Shown: positions 21,721-28,011, numbered from the stretch's first letter. The stretch is 64,000 nucleotides of DNA from Candidatus Tepidiaquacellales bacterium OLB4/UTCHB1 (GCA_002050165.1 MWSW01000010.1:62001-126000); one strand, 5' to 3'. Program-made: numbers and translations. The notes: generated by a model not told the origin, from the letters alone.

Positions 21721-22878
21721 ATGACTTACTATCATAAACTGGGATCAATCCCACAGAAAAGACATACCCAATTTAAAAAATCTGATGGTTCACTTTACAA
21801 GGAAGAACTGATATCAACAATTGGTTTCGATAGCATTCTTACAAATAGCTATCACATTAATTCACCTGCGAAAATCGAGGGAATTGACAATGAAGTTGTA
21901 ACATTTAAAATTCATGAATGGGATTCCGCCACGCTTCGACCCTATCATTTCAAAACGAAAGGATTAGAGCGGGACGGCGATTTTGTTACCGGACGAAAAG
22001 TAATAATGTACAATAACGAAGTCTTGATGAGTGTTTGCCGGCCTGCAAATGAAATGGATTACTTCTATAAAAATGCATCTTGTGATGAAGTTGTTTTTGT
22101 CCACGAAGGCGAAGGTGAATTGCAATCTCAACTTGGAGTTCTGAAATATCGGGAAGGTGATTACATTGTAATTCCTAGGGGTACAATATCAAAATTCACT
22201 TCAGTAAAACCAGCACGATTACTTATATTCGAAGCTTTTGGTCCGATAACTGTTCCGAAAAGGTACAGGAATGAATTCGGTCAGTTCCTGGAACATTCAC
22301 CCTATTGTGAACGCGATATCAAGGTACCGGACAAACTCCTGACTATTGACGAGAAAGGAGATTTTATAGTTAAAGTCAAGAAAGGTATGCAAATGATTTC
22401 CGTACATTATTCATTTCACCCGTTTGATGTTATCGGTTGGGATGGTTATTGGTATCCGTGGATTTTCAATATTGAGGATTTTATGCCAATCACCGGAAAG
22501 GTACATATGCCTCCTACTGTTCATCAGACGTTTGACGGTCCGGGATTTGTAATATGTTCTTTTTGTCCGAGATTGCTTGATTATCACCCTCTTGCAGTCC
22601 CGATACCGTACAATCACAGCAATATAGACGCAGATGAGATGTTGTACTACGTTGATGGAAATTTCAGTTCGCGAAAAGGTGTTGAGTATGCCTCAATAAG
22701 TTTACATCCTGATGGCATTCCTCACGGACCGCATCCGGGTACAGTTGAAGCAGCACTTGGGAAAAAAGAAACTCTTGAAACAGCAGTAATGATGGATACA
22801 TTCAACCCGTTGAAATTGACAAATTGGGCAAAGGCGTTCAACGATGAGAATTATTATCTGAGTTGGAGGGAAAGTTAA
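21721..22878 (+). CDS. hmgA: Homogentisate 1,2-dioxygenase
   Basis: The 385-residue product matches HmgA in length and landmarks: a cupin core with a D-E-V-V-F-V-H-E-G-E-G-E-L strand run (about 123-135) and a second half containing PFDVIGWDGYWYPW, VHMPPTVHQTFDGPGFV, and HPDGIPHGPHPG (around 340-355), which supplies metal-ligand histidines and glutamate for the active-site Fe(II). It opens homogentisate to maleylacetoacetate in tyrosine/phenylalanine breakdown. No other genes of that pathway are adjacent. Its 3' end overlaps the convergent receiver-like gene by four bases. Confidence 0.93.
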   Translation: MTYYHKLGSIPQKRHTQFKKSDGSLYKEELISTIGFDSILTNSYHINSPAKIEGIDNEVVTFKIHEWDSATLRPYHFKTKGLERDGDFVTGRKVIMYNNEVLMSVCRPANEMDYFYKNASCDEVVFVHEGEGELQSQLGVLKYREGDYIVIPRGTISKFTSVKPARLLIFEAFGPITVPKRYRNEFGQFLEHSPYCERDIKVPDKLLTIDEKGDFIVKVKKGMQMISVHYSFHPFDVIGWDGYWYPWIFNIEDFMPITGKVHMPPTVHQTFDGPGFVICSFCPRLLDYHPLAVPIPYNHSNIDADEMLYYVDGNFSSRKGVEYASISLHPDGIPHGPHPGTVEAALGKKETLETAVMMDTFNPLKLTNWAKAFNDENYYLSWRES

Positions 22879-23246
22879 TATTTGAAAATATTATCGATTG
22901 CTGTGTGAAACTCGAGTAGAGTCATTATACTGTCGCAACCGGATTTGAATATTTTTGATTTTTGTTCTTTTGAAAATTCGACAGGAGATATTCCGATTAT
23001 TTTCATTGTCGTCGATGAACTGTTACTTCTGATAGCAACGATTGCATCAAGCGCATGAATGAAAGCAAGGTCAATTATTACCATTGCAGAATTCTCTTCT
23101 GACGACTTTTGAACTAAATCGTCAACTTCGGAAATGAATTCAACCGTTATCTGGTGATTTAGTTTGGTAAGCGTTAACGCTTTAATTTTGATGAATGAAA
23201 TCAGCTCATCATTACTTGAGATAGCGAGGATTCTTCTTGTTGTCAT
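22875..23246 (-). CDS. Degenerate CheY-like receiver-domain protein
   Basis: The 123-residue product follows a response-regulator receiver fold: a first strand RRILAISS, an acidic residue pair (NDE, around 12-14), a candidate phospho-acceptor in VIIDLA (third strand), and GISP at the fourth strand where the conserved Thr/Ser lies. The conserved Lys of the fifth strand is not seen (GCDSIMTLLEF instead of a KP pair). It may be a pseudo-receiver acting without phosphorylation. It has no output domain. It is divergent from the amidotransferase cluster with 62 bp between. Confidence 0.65.
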   Translation of the reverse strand: MTTRRILAISSNDELISFIKIKALTLTKLNHQITVEFISEVDDLVQKSSEENSAMVIIDLAFIHALDAIVAIRSNSSSTTMKIIGISPVEFSKEQKSKIFKSGCDSIMTLLEFHTAIDNIFKY

Positions 23247-23308
23247 CTTAAACTTAATCTATCAATAAATGAAATATTGTTCAATTTATAAATCAAATAA
23301 AGGAAAAA

Positions 23309-24157
23309 TTGGAACAAACTAATATACGTATTGCGATCCTTGATTTATACAATAATGAAGAAAATCAGGGTATGCGCTGTATTCAGGATATACTCAAAGA
23401 AACAGATGGAAAATATGACAGGGTAAAGATATGTTACGATATATATGAAGTGAGATACAAAAATGATGCACCGGATCAGAGTTACGATATTTACATTTCC
23501 TCTGGTGGTCCCGGCAGCCCATTTGAAGGCGTAGGGATGCCATGGGAGGCATCTTATTTTAAACTGCTCGATAAGTTGGTAGCAAACAATGAGAATCCCG
23601 CCAACAGAAAGAAATATATATTTTTTATATGTCATTCATTTCAGATGATGGTGAGATATTTTAAGCTTGCTGAGATAGTAAAAAGAGAACGTCGTGCATT
23701 CGGAATTTTTCCGATTTACAAAACTGAGTCTGGTTTAAGCGATCCGTTATTATGTAATCTTGCAAATCCGTTTTACGCTGCTGATTTCAGGGAGTGGCAG
23801 GTGCTGAACCCCGATTCGGAAGTGTTAGATAAAACCGGTGCGGAAATTCTTGCAATCGAACGGGAGCGCCCGGATTTTCCGGAAAATCGCGCGCTTATGG
23901 CAATAAGAATATCCGATGAAATAGTTGGTACACAATTCCATCCTGAGGCGGATCCATCAAGTATGATTTACCACTTCAGACAACCTGAACGAAAACAACA
24001 GGTCATTAATGAATTCAATGAAAATGCATATTATGAAATGTTGCAACACCTTGAAGAACCTGATAACATCATTAGAACGAAAAATTGTATTCTCCCTGGA
24101 TTTCTGGTTTCTGCTATTGATTCAATGACAGTGGGAAAGTTAGAATCGGTTTTGTGA
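23309..24157 (+). CDS. Class I glutamine amidotransferase-like protein
   Basis: The 282-residue product has a Triad-type glutaminase domain: oxyanion strand GGPGSP (66-71), nucleophile Cys108 in FICHSFQ, and catalytic His211/Glu213 in GTQFHPEADP. The usual GxCxGxQ elbow carries Ser110 in place of the second Gly. Such domains release ammonia from glutamine for a partner ligase. The start is TTG at 23309 with an AGGA-like site just upstream. It leads a four-gene same-strand run with an ATP-grasp ligase, a YbdK/GCS2 ligase and a second ATP-grasp-like protein. Alternative: a homoserine-acyltransferase-like or esterase-like relative. Confidence 0.82.
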   Translation: MEQTNIRIAILDLYNNEENQGMRCIQDILKETDGKYDRVKICYDIYEVRYKNDAPDQSYDIYISSGGPGSPFEGVGMPWEASYFKLLDKLVANNENPANRKKYIFFICHSFQMMVRYFKLAEIVKRERRAFGIFPIYKTESGLSDPLLCNLANPFYAADFREWQVLNPDSEVLDKTGAEILAIERERPDFPENRALMAIRISDEIVGTQFHPEADPSSMIYHFRQPERKQQVINEFNENAYYEMLQHLEEPDNIIRTKNCILPGFLVSAIDSMTVGKLESVL

Positions 24158-24221
24158 AATGAAAATTAATTAATCAAAGATTCAGATATACATTAACATA
24201 TTAAATCCACTTCGATTTTCT

Positions 24222-24229
24222 TAAATTTG
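24222..24229 (+). promoter_or_regulatory. -7 box (TAAATTTG) before the ATP-grasp gene
   Basis: TAAATTTG ends 37 bp upstream of the ATG at 24267 and matches TAnnTTTG. It suggests an internal promoter in the amidoligase run, so the upstream amidotransferase could be expressed separately from the rest. Confidence 0.4.
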
Positions 24230-24266
24230 TATCTTTAAATAAACTACATTAAAAACCCAGTTATTC

Positions 24267-25232
24267 ATGAAAAAGATAGGAATACTTTTCGGGATGGAAA
24301 ACACCTTTCCGCCAGCATTTGTTGAACGCGTAAATCAAAAGCTCGCTGATGAAGGTATTAGAGATATTGTAGCGGAGTTCGTAAAAATTGATAAGGTATT
24401 ACAGGGACAGTCAGACGAATATGCTGTTATAATTGACAGAATATCACAGGACGTTCCATTTTATCGCGGTTATCTAAAAAATGCTGCGATTTCAGGGACT
24501 GCCGTTTTAAATAATCCTTTCTGGTGGAGTGCGGACGACAAGTTTTTTAATAATGCACTTGCAACAAAGATAGGAGTCGCAGTTCCGAAAACTGTATTGC
24601 TTCCTTCAAACGAGCATCCGAAAGACACCACAACAGAATCGTTCAGGAACCTTGCATTCCCGCTTGCATGGGAAGATATTTTTGAATATATCGGGTGGCC
24701 TGCATATTTTAAACCATTTTCCGGTGGTGGTTGGAAAAACGTATATCAACTTAACGATTCAGAATCCTTCTTCAAAGCATATTCTGAAACAGGCGATCTC
24801 GTTATGATGCTTCAGGAAGAGATTAAATTTGATGCGTATTTCAGATGTTACTGTATTGACAGGAAGGATGTGAAGATAATGCCATACGAGCCAAGAAATC
24901 CGCACCATTTGAGATACGTTGCAGAGTTTAACCATATACCGAGGGAGTTGCTTGAAAGGATTCACTCTGATGTACTCAAATTAAATAATGCGTTAGGATA
25001 TGACTTCAACACAGTTGAATTTGCAGTTCGTGATGGTATTCCTTACGCTATAGATTTTTGTAATCCCGCTCCCGATGCAGAGAAGACATCAGTAGGCGAG
25101 GAAAACTTCAACTGGGTAGTTGAAGCCGCAGCAAATATGGCTGTCAGGCGAGCGAAAGCACACAGAGACGGTCAAAACAATCTTACGTGGGGGAGTTTTG
25201 TGAAGGAATTTTCTTCAAATAATAATTCTTAA
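24267..25232 (+). CDS. ATP-grasp ligase of unknown specificity
   Basis: The 321-residue product shows an ATP-grasp pattern: Lys149 in GWPAYFKPFSGGGWKNV (nucleotide-binding lysine plus glycine loop), QEEI at 183-186 (adenine-contact region), and metal-binding Glu251, Asp263 and Asn266 in NTVEFAVRDGIPYAIDFCN. ATP-grasp enzymes activate a carboxylate as acyl phosphate and join it to an amine or thiol. It is the second gene in the amidotransferase/GCS2 run, so it probably ligates a small molecule or amino acid in that pathway. No substrate motif is recognisable. Confidence 0.85.
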   Translation: MKKIGILFGMENTFPPAFVERVNQKLADEGIRDIVAEFVKIDKVLQGQSDEYAVIIDRISQDVPFYRGYLKNAAISGTAVLNNPFWWSADDKFFNNALATKIGVAVPKTVLLPSNEHPKDTTTESFRNLAFPLAWEDIFEYIGWPAYFKPFSGGGWKNVYQLNDSESFFKAYSETGDLVMMLQEEIKFDAYFRCYCIDRKDVKIMPYEPRNPHHLRYVAEFNHIPRELLERIHSDVLKLNNALGYDFNTVEFAVRDGIPYAIDFCNPAPDAEKTSVGEENFNWVVEAAANMAVRRAKAHRDGQNNLTWGSFVKEFSSNNNS

Positions 25233-25329
25233 GTTCAGTGATTTTTATTAATCAACAAATTTTATCCCGATATAATCCTTTCGTGAGCCCGCAAGGAATT
25301 TTGGGGTTAAGACAAAATAAATATTTTTT

Positions 25330-26445
25330 ATGAGCCCCAAAAAACTTTATACTTTAGGGATAGAAGAAGAATTTCAGTTGGTTCACCCTGAAACGAGGGA
25401 ATTACATACGCACGTAAACTCAATTTTTGACGTCGCATCAAAAAAGCCCGGTCAAGAGCTCAAACCTGAAATGCATAAATCTGTGGTTGAAGTTGGAACT
25501 CAGATTTGTACTGATATAAAAGATGCGCGAAAGCAGGTTACCCAAATGAGAAGAGATCTTGCAAACCTTGCAATTGAGAATGATATGAGAATTGCAGCTT
25601 CCGGAACGCATCCGTTTTCACATTGGCGCGATCAGGAAATAACAGACCATCCGAGGTATCACGAGATTGTTAATGAGATGCAGGAAGCGGCCCGGGCGAA
25701 TTTAATTTTTGGTCTTCACGTTCACGTCGGGATTGATAACCGTGATGTCGGAATTCATATCATGAATGCAGCGCGATATTTTATCCCTCATATTTTTGCA
25801 CTTTCTACAAATTCACCGTTTTGGCTGGGAAGAAATACCGGATTTAAATCGTACAGGGTTAAAGTATTTGATAAATTTCCGCGTACCGGAATTCCTGACT
25901 ATTTCAGCAGTGTTGCTGAATACGATAACTTTGTCAACACTCTGATAAAAACAAACTGCATAGATAACGCAAAAAAAATCTGGTGGGATATCAGGCTACA
26001 CCCGTTTTTTGAAACGCTCGAATTCCGTGTATGTGATGTTACAATGAGGATTGATGAAACCATTGCGCTTGCGGCGCTCATACAAGCGGTTGTTGTCAAA
26101 CTTCATAAACTTATAAAACAAAATCTGGGATTTAGAATTTACCGCAGGGCATTGATTGCGGAAAATAAGTTCAGGGCATCAAGATACGGCATTGAAGGGA
26201 AATTGATTGACTTCGGTAAAACAGAAGAAGTTCCGTTTATCAGTCTTGCACACGAATTGCTCGAGTTTATTGATGATGTTGTTGATGAACTTGATAGCCG
26301 CGAAGAGATAAGTTATATTTTTAAAATTCTTGAAGATGGTACCGGAGCCGAGAGACAACTGAAAGTTTTTGAAGAAACCGGCGACTTGAAAAAAGTTACA
26401 GACTTCATCGTACAGGAAACCCATTACGGGCTAAACATACTTTAA
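25330..26445 (+). CDS. YbdK-type carboxylate-amine ligase (GCS2 family)
   Basis: The 371-residue product has the classic landmarks of the bacterial GCS2 family: TLGIEEEFQLV at the N terminus (ATP/metal-binding glutamates), VEVGTQICTD, ASGTHPFSHW, FGLHVHVGI and FETLEFRVCDV. Family members form gamma-glutamyl-type bonds, and YbdK has weak glutamate-cysteine ligase activity. With two ATP-grasp-like partners and an amidotransferase alongside, this enzyme is likely part of a multi-step amide synthesis rather than glutathione synthesis. It ends five bases before the next gene. Confidence 0.92.
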   Translation: MSPKKLYTLGIEEEFQLVHPETRELHTHVNSIFDVASKKPGQELKPEMHKSVVEVGTQICTDIKDARKQVTQMRRDLANLAIENDMRIAASGTHPFSHWRDQEITDHPRYHEIVNEMQEAARANLIFGLHVHVGIDNRDVGIHIMNAARYFIPHIFALSTNSPFWLGRNTGFKSYRVKVFDKFPRTGIPDYFSSVAEYDNFVNTLIKTNCIDNAKKIWWDIRLHPFFETLEFRVCDVTMRIDETIALAALIQAVVVKLHKLIKQNLGFRIYRRALIAENKFRASRYGIEGKLIDFGKTEEVPFISLAHELLEFIDDVVDELDSREEISYIFKILEDGTGAERQLKVFEETGDLKKVTDFIVQETHYGLNIL

Positions 26446-26450
26446 TAATT

Positions 26451-27635
26451 ATGATAAAATCCATTCGGAACAGTTACAATTCGGAATTTACAGTTGAAAA
26501 ATACGAAAAGTTTGTGAAGTCGCTTAATGATGAGTTCGGGATTAATATTGAATTCAGGGTAAGTGAAACTCCCTTTTTTATTGATAAAGACCTGAAAGCG
26601 AAAGTTAATTTAGCAATCAGTAATATAACTTCACAAATTAAATCGGAAACTTTCCTGTCGAAAATTGATAAAGCGGTTCCGGAAAATTTAAAAGTCCCGA
26701 ATGAAGTACCATATGCAGATGTGCTCTCGTTGGATTTTGCAATTTGCAAAGATGAAAGCGGAGAGTTTATACCTAAGCTGATTGAGCTTCAAGGATTCGC
26801 GTCACTGTATTTTTATCAGGTACTGCTGGATCAAAAGTTCAGGGAATTTTTCAATATACCTGAAAATTGCAGGAGTTTGTTCGATGGAATAGATTACGAC
26901 GAATATTTTAAAATTTTAAATGATGTAATTATTGGTGGCGCAGATCCGGAAAATGTTATATTGCTTGAGATAGAACCGGAAAAGCAGAAAACATTTATTG
27001 ATTTCCTGTGTACCGAAAAATATATCGGGATTCAATCAGTCTGCATTTCGGATATTGTCAAACAGGGCAATAAATTGTATTACCAGAAAAGCGGAAAGCT
27101 TACACCAATTGAGCGAATTTACAATCGGGTAATTTTTGATGAACTGTTGAAACGACCGGATATCAAATACGACTTTAAGTTTCAGGACGATCTCGATGTA
27201 CGATTTGTTGCACATCCAAATTGGTTTTTCAAAATAAGTAAGTATGCGTTACCGTTCCTTTCCGGAGTTTATGTTCCGGAAACAAAATTTTTACATCAGG
27301 TTACAGAAATTCCCAATGATTTGGAAAACTACATACTCAAGCCGTTATTTTCATTTGCAGGATCAGGAGTGAAATATGATATAATTCTCGATGAACTTAA
27401 AGCAATAACGGATAAAGAAAACTATATTCTCCAGAAAAAAGTAAACTACGAACCGTTGATACAAACACCGGATATCCCCGCCAAAGCAGAACTCCGGATA
27501 CTGATGGTTTACTTTAACGGGGATTACATTCCGTTGAATAATCTCGTAAGATTAAGCAAAGGAAAAATGATGGGTGTGGATTTCAATAAAGATAAATCCT
27601 GGGTCGGGTCAAGTATCGCTTACTTTGAAACCTGA
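26451..27635 (+). CDS. ATP-grasp-like protein (glutathionylspermidine-synthase-like C half), unknown substrate
   Basis: The 394-residue product has no simple family match that I can name. A C-terminal stretch is ATP-grasp-like: 'NYILKPLFSFAGSGVKYD' (Lys plus glycine loop), then 'AELRILMVYFNGDYIPLN' and 'KDKSWVGSSIAYF'. The N-terminal 180 residues include 'YADVLSLDFAI' and 'PKLIELQGFASLYFYQ', resembling segments of glutathionylspermidine-synthase-like ligases. It is spaced five bases after the YbdK gene, so cotranscription is likely, and its end overlaps the convergent small gene by 16 bp. Confidence 0.7.
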   Translation: MIKSIRNSYNSEFTVEKYEKFVKSLNDEFGINIEFRVSETPFFIDKDLKAKVNLAISNITSQIKSETFLSKIDKAVPENLKVPNEVPYADVLSLDFAICKDESGEFIPKLIELQGFASLYFYQVLLDQKFREFFNIPENCRSLFDGIDYDEYFKILNDVIIGGADPENVILLEIEPEKQKTFIDFLCTEKYIGIQSVCISDIVKQGNKLYYQKSGKLTPIERIYNRVIFDELLKRPDIKYDFKFQDDLDVRFVAHPNWFFKISKYALPFLSGVYVPETKFLHQVTEIPNDLENYILKPLFSFAGSGVKYDIILDELKAITDKENYILQKKVNYEPLIQTPDIPAKAELRILMVYFNGDYIPLNNLVRLSKGKMMGVDFNKDKSWVGSSIAYFET

Positions 27636-27826
27636 TTTAACCACCTTATCTGTAAATTTAACTCCTGCGAAGTAATTATCTCGGGTTTTCCTTTTCTTAA
27701 ATCTTGCCGCCGGATTTCCGATTTTATGACCTCACTTAACATATTGAATACCGATGTGTCTAATTCAATTTCGATTTCACCATTGTCTGTGATTACGGTG
27801 ATTTTTTGATTTGTAGTCTCTCCCAT
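27620..27826 (-). CDS. Small acidic/basic protein of unknown function (68 aa)
   Basis: A longer open frame upstream is hydrophobic noise; the supported start is the ATG at 27826 (MGETTNQKITVITDNG), preceded at 17 bp by a TATATTTG box. The 68-residue product has a short beta-rich N terminus (ITVITDNGEIEIELD) and a helical middle (MLSEVIKSEIRRQDLRKGKPE). I recognise no family. It ends inside the 3' end of the ATP-grasp-like gene (16-bp convergent overlap). Confidence 0.55.
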   Translation of the reverse strand: MGETTNQKITVITDNGEIEIELDTSVFNMLSEVIKSEIRRQDLRKGKPEIITSQELNLQIRWLNQVSK

Positions 27827-27842
27827 AAAAAAATTTTTTTGA

Positions 27843-27850
27843 CAAATATA
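27843..27850 (-). promoter_or_regulatory. -7 box (TATATTTG) for the 68-residue gene
   Basis: On the minus strand TATATTTG lies 17 bp before the ATG at 27826 and matches TAnnTTTG, which supports the shorter start for that gene. Confidence 0.45.
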
Positions 27851-27977
27851 GAAGAGAAAGAGAAGATTCTTATGGAGAAATATCTTAAAAGGTACGAACA
27901 GAAATAAGCAAACTAAGAAAAAACGTAAATAAATAATTAAAAATCCAATTAAACGAAAATAATAAACCCGGAAACGT

Positions 27978-28011
27978 AAAAAACCCGAAAGGTTAAAACT
28001 CACTTTCGGGT
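27978..28011 (-). terminator. Intrinsic terminator downstream of dps
   Basis: On the minus strand a 9-bp perfect stem (ACCCGAAAG with CTTTCGGGT, 11-nt loop) is followed by six Ts. It lies 33 bp past the dps stop and separates this unit from the 68-residue gene. Confidence 0.9.

Follow-up and report, generated by a model that had tools for sequence, protein, structure and literature searches.

The described systems closest to the locus analysed here, whose four genes we call A, B, C and D, each share some of its components. In the Puu pathway, PuuD uses the class-I GATase fold, the fold class of A, as a gamma-Glu-GABA hydrolase and not as an ammonia donor, but the ligase of that pathway is glutamine-synthetase-like. 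Glutathione and homoglutathione biosynthesis resembles the locus in that C belongs to the GCS2 family and D has a glutathione synthetase (GSS) fold that matches the structure of yeast GSS in complex with gamma-Glu-Cys; however, B and the hydrolase (A or the M29-family protein described below) have no counterpart there. The peptide-polyamine ligases YgiC/YjfC and GspS have the fold of D (3n6x, 7uk8, 7uk6 and 2io7) and a KPxFSxxGxxV loop region that is also present in D, but their sequence relation to D is marginal (E 0.028, hhalign probability 46), and D has no Pfam match and is grouped with C and B. YgiC and YjfC attach polyamines, and the GSS-fold enzyme Cp1B makes pseudodipeptides in E-64 synthesis (PMC12568646). 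Cp1B, which belongs to an NRPS-independent pathway, is similar to D as a GSS-fold ligase for small pseudopeptides (9cjn is among the Foldseek matches of D) and differs in being fungal and in having other partners, no GCS2 enzyme and no exchange of hydrolases. RimK–RimB and RloC–RloA combine an ATP-grasp ligase with a peptidase, RimK being a glutamate ligase and RimB a peptidase that removes glutamates (PMC12239564); unlike in our locus, their peptidases are of the retropepsin type, and there is no GCS2 or GSS-fold partner. Mixed amidoligase neighbourhoods are a kind of gene arrangement that is already known (PMC4431377). No description of the present gene combination, its breadth or the exchange of its hydrolase was found in the searchable literature, whose reach did not include the 2009 amidoligase-neighbourhood survey of Iyer et al.

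The window, that is, the whole stretch of 64,000 nucleotides that was analysed, contains the four genes as intact ORFs on one strand between positions 23309 and 27635, where the original prediction had placed them. Gene A (23309–24157, + strand) encodes a class-I GATase-like amidohydrolase of 282 aa; its start codon is TTG, with AAGGA ahead of it at 23300–23304. It is followed on the same strand by B (24267–25232), a predicted ATP-grasp amide ligase of the D-Ala-D-Ala ligase/LysX/RimK type, C (25330–26445), a YbdK/GCS2 carboxylate-amine ligase, and D (26451–27635), a predicted ATP-grasp ligase of the glutathione-synthetase/GspS/YgiC fold. The intergenic gaps are 109 bp (A–B), 97 bp (B–C) and 5 bp (C–D), the last in agreement with the tight spacing reported earlier, and the run is flanked by opposite-strand ORFs at 22875–23246 and 27620–28003. 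A weak -7-like box of the Bacteroidota type, TAAATTTG, is located in the A–B gap (24222–24229, + strand), as had been noted. Since 50 such boxes are found on the same strand of the window and no TTG occurs at the -33 spacing from this one, its role as a promoter is only suggestive. Upstream of the run, the window encodes a homogentisate-dioxygenase-like cupin protein (21721–22875, + strand), which scores 58.8 against an hmgA equivalog cut-off of 510.75 and probably belongs to a family other than hmgA.

Searches of Pfam and NCBIfam identified the products of A and C and left B and D without an identity. Gene A scored 30.3 bits against the GATase family (PF00117; cut-off 22.8), and alignment of 16 sequences showed that Cys108, Gln112, His211 and Glu213 are unvarying, so the catalytic triad proposed for it (Cys108/His211/Glu213) is upheld. 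For C, the scores lie far above the cut-offs of both GCS2 (PF04107; 204 bits, cut-off 21) and PRK13515 (528.6, cut-off 371), and its best solved relatives are YbdK (1r8g, E 2.9e-66) and 1tt4. It is the sole GCS2 gene in the 2.42 Mb window genome. In contrast to the enzyme of glutathione biosynthesis, C scores under the glutamate-cysteine ligase cut-offs and fits the NCBIfam model of a YbdK-type carboxylate-amine ligase; family chemistry suggests that it forms a gamma-glutamyl-type bond.

B remained under every family cut-off (R2K_2, 17.3 versus 26.2; rimK_fam, TIGR00768, 19.8 versus 143.4), D had no match in Pfam or NCBIfam at E 1, and profile searches of solved structures returned marginal matches only for both proteins, so structure prediction was needed. 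The AlphaFold2 model of B (pLDDT 87.7, from an alignment of 21 sequences) was matched by Foldseek to 3r5x (1.7e-14), LysX (5k2m) and RimK (5zct), with E values of about 1e-14 to 1e-12. The model of D (pLDDT 92.5, from 27 sequences) was matched to 3n6x (1.1e-14), yeast GSS 1m0w (7.9e-14) and YgiC 7uk8 (3.2e-12), with TM scores of about 0.55. According to these models, B is an ATP-grasp protein of the D-Ala-D-Ala ligase/LysX/RimK type and D an ATP-grasp protein of the glutathione synthetase/GspS/YgiC type, in line with the original description of both as ATP-grasp ligases and of D as resembling glutathionylspermidine-synthase-type enzymes. The family of D keeps the motifs IELQGFPSLY and KPLFSFAGxGV, and it defines a ligase family that present domain libraries miss. 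B is the most conserved component of the module, with 55–74% identity to aligned homologues across phyla. Several Bacteroidota copies of B (L042, L061, L062 and L082) carry long Lys/Ala/Pro-rich, histone-H1-like C-terminal tails, and in L046 the tail has a terminal segment that is like a helix-hairpin-helix. Unlike these copies, the B protein of the window has no tail.

B is distributed over Ignavibacteria, Bacteroidota and Verrucomicrobiota, and the conservation of gene order, which the original prediction proposed to examine in related genomes, was found to extend across these three phyla. Among 56 contigs with at least 6 kb of sequence downstream of B, C follows B in 52, D in 46 and both together in 45, and C and D are accompanied by A or an M29-family protein in 39. 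The order B-C-A-D was observed in 29 of the 56 contigs and B-C-M29-D in nine; none contained both hydrolases. In the phylum sample of 247 genomes, 86 of which contain B, 58 of 59 genomes with A, 70 of 73 with D and 70 of 79 with C also have B; three of the exceptions (G268, G124 and G325) may reflect assembly gaps. Fisher p values for the association of A, C and D with B range from about 1e-33 to 1e-42, uncorrected for shared ancestry. Because the linkage recurs across phyla and because of these p values, the gene set is far beyond what chance would give. C is missing from 16 of the 86 genomes with B, and six loci that belong to other families in the phylum (L132–L135, L149 and L150) have a single circularly permuted ATP-grasp protein, encoded between B and A, in place of D and the linked C. 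Gamma-glutamylation by C is therefore not universal, and the stable core consists of B, a second ATP-grasp protein (D or the permuted one) and, in most genomes, a hydrolase. The module thus represents a multi-enzyme pathway that is conserved in at least three bacterial phyla and has no known product. It also occurs in the cultured genera Dyadobacter, Algoriphagus, Flavobacterium and Mucilaginibacter.

Many genomes have, in place of A, an unrelated protein of the M29/AmpS family encoded between C and D. This counterpart scored 73.8 bits against PF02073 (cut-off 27), and its residues E196, E268, H294, Y301, H314 and D316, which we take to be the AmpS/AmpT metal-ligand positions, are unvarying in the alignment. 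NicX-type dioxygenases also have the M29 fold. The two hydrolases exclude each other: in the window's class, of which 119 genomes were surveyed, A is present in nine and M29 orthologues in 24, all of them with B and none with both, and in the phylum sample A is found in 59 genomes and M29 in three, again with no overlap. This exclusion is partly clustered by lineage. Within the family of the window genome, M29 is located between C and D or beside C in all 13 members examined (ten loci that were fetched and three assessed by coordinates, with G014, whose B is divergent, left out); in each of the ten fetched relatives the order is B-C-M29, followed by D wherever the contig continues. In the window genome, which is 99% complete, no M29 was detected at E 0.001; A stands ahead of B instead, and C is separated from D by 5 bp. 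The phylogenetic trees place the window B inside an M29-bearing clade (support 96) and the window A inside the f10/Ignavibacteriaceae clade (support 96). At least five changes between the A and M29 states are needed on the B tree, at least four of which are forced by well supported branches. The simplest history is that the lineage of the window lost M29 and acquired A, although this direction of the swap is itself inferred. Seven genomes of family f10 encode A apart from B-C-D, so a contig on which only B-C-D is seen may still come from a genome with A; in three of these genomes (L127, L128 and L130), an M24 peptidase-family gene lies near the unlinked A. Neither A nor M29 was found in 25 of the 86 phylum-sample genomes with B, and the hydrolase is therefore either dispensable or has a third substitute.

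The pattern of exchange argues, without proving it, that A and M29 are functionally equivalent. Enzymes of the M29 family are peptide hydrolases, and to our knowledge no route from glutamine to ammonia has been described for them, so the likely job of A is amide cutting; we consider it more likely, though not proven, that A cuts an amide of the pathway than that it feeds ammonia to a ligase. The exchange turns a vague guess at an amide metabolite into a testable claim about the type of step that A performs. PuuD-like function was considered for A and set aside, as the alignment of A with PuuD is useful only at the nucleophile elbow, and PuuD is therefore no more than an analogy.

With moderate confidence, we propose that the locus encodes one form of a widespread, uncharacterised pathway for small peptide-like amides that is independent of the ribosome and of NRPS and includes an amide-cutting step by A or M29. 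From family chemistry, B, C and D would each use ATP to activate a carboxylate as an acyl phosphate and couple it to an amine, and it is from fold and family that we infer substrates and order of steps. C would make a gamma-glutamyl-type amide, D, to judge by its fold, would extend a gamma-glutamyl or peptide carboxylate (compare the glutathione and homoglutathione synthetases and YgiC), and B would make one further bond. A single amide would then be cut by A or, elsewhere, by the M29/AmpS-type enzyme; the simplest such reaction is the removal of Glu or gamma-Glu from the N-terminus, which would serve for deprotection, trimming or turnover. In the lineage of the window, the ancestral M29 between C and D would have been lost and its role taken by A, ahead of B.

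The original prediction of an amidated or gamma-glutamyl metabolite stands as far as a conserved, uncharacterised amidoligase pathway is concerned: linkage and co-occurrence agree with it, and none of the outcomes named as speaking against it was obtained (no ATP-grasp fold in B or D, no conserved linkage, or clear orthology of each gene to a separate housekeeping pathway). The ammonia-feeding role implied for A fared worse. If A were a true glutaminase that supplies B or D with ammonia, the product would be a primary amide, and A does keep the Cys-His-Glu triad, the SGGPGSP loop and a Gln at Cys+4 that is seen in glutamine-using GATases; it also adjoins B in the window, and most Bacteroidota have it between C and D. 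However, its exchange with an M29/AmpS-type metallo-hydrolase, its separation from B-C-D in the f10 genomes and its absence from many genomes that have B, C and D, including those in which M29 is missing too, make this reading unlikely. We judge it similarly improbable that the ligases tag a protein or polymer with glutamate or a peptide and that A or M29 strips the tag. Such pairs have a characterised precedent in RimK/RimB and RloC/RloA (PMC12239564), B has the RimK/LysX fold and is unusually conserved between phyla, and the tails of the Bacteroidota B proteins would fit, but D resembles ligases for small peptides and amines, the neighbourhoods contain no conserved gene for an acceptor protein, and the tail is missing from the window copy.

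It is very improbable that the locus is a RiPP cluster of the graspetide type, with B or D cyclising a precursor peptide. The ligases PsnB and MdnC are among the structural matches of B, but the ATP-grasp fold alone cannot tell graspetide ligases from others, and in many copies the genes lie about -4 to 100 bp apart, too close for a conserved precursor gene to fit between them. No co-conserved small ORF was found within the operon, so the search for a precursor peptide gene suggested originally gave a negative answer and a RiPP is unlikely. That the four are unrelated housekeeping genes brought together by chance is hardly credible: the gaps of 109 and 97 bp and the possible internal promoter in the window would allow it, but the order is conserved across three phyla, and the genes co-occur strongly even when they are unlinked.

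Genes for an alpha/beta-hydrolase (esterase-like, c4) lie within 2.5 kb upstream of B in 40 of the 56 contigs (for example, L032:4766-5485), and it is a close c4 subfamily that is linked to B. The window genome contains only a distant paralogue (G000:C16:14633-15352), which adjoins a glycogen synthase gene and lies 71 kb upstream of B. An esterase was therefore rejected as an obligatory part and is not counted as a component of the module. Speculatively, the module might make a novel glutathione-like gamma-glutamyl peptide cofactor for much of Bacteroidota, Ignavibacteriota and Verrucomicrobiota. The linked esterase would then act on thioesters of this cofactor in the manner of S-formylglutathione hydrolase, and A or M29 would serve in its turnover; we regard this idea as improbable. 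In one genome, the order glgA-glgC-esterase-B is seen (L135:7253-10943; names by sequence inspection).

Other neighbours vary between lineages. In family f14, hutH (histidine ammonia-lyase) adjoins B (L112, L116, L117 and L125) and a gene for an Amidohydro_3 protein adjoins D (L113, L118, L120 and L126); both were considered as parts of the module and rejected, as they look like lineage-specific arrangements. Chitinophagaceae-like genomes have a related Amidohydro_3 gene in the vicinity of A (L142, L144 and L093). In five Ignavibacteria contigs, D is followed by a gene for a large protein that is amylase-like by sequence inspection (for example, L032:9786-13550).
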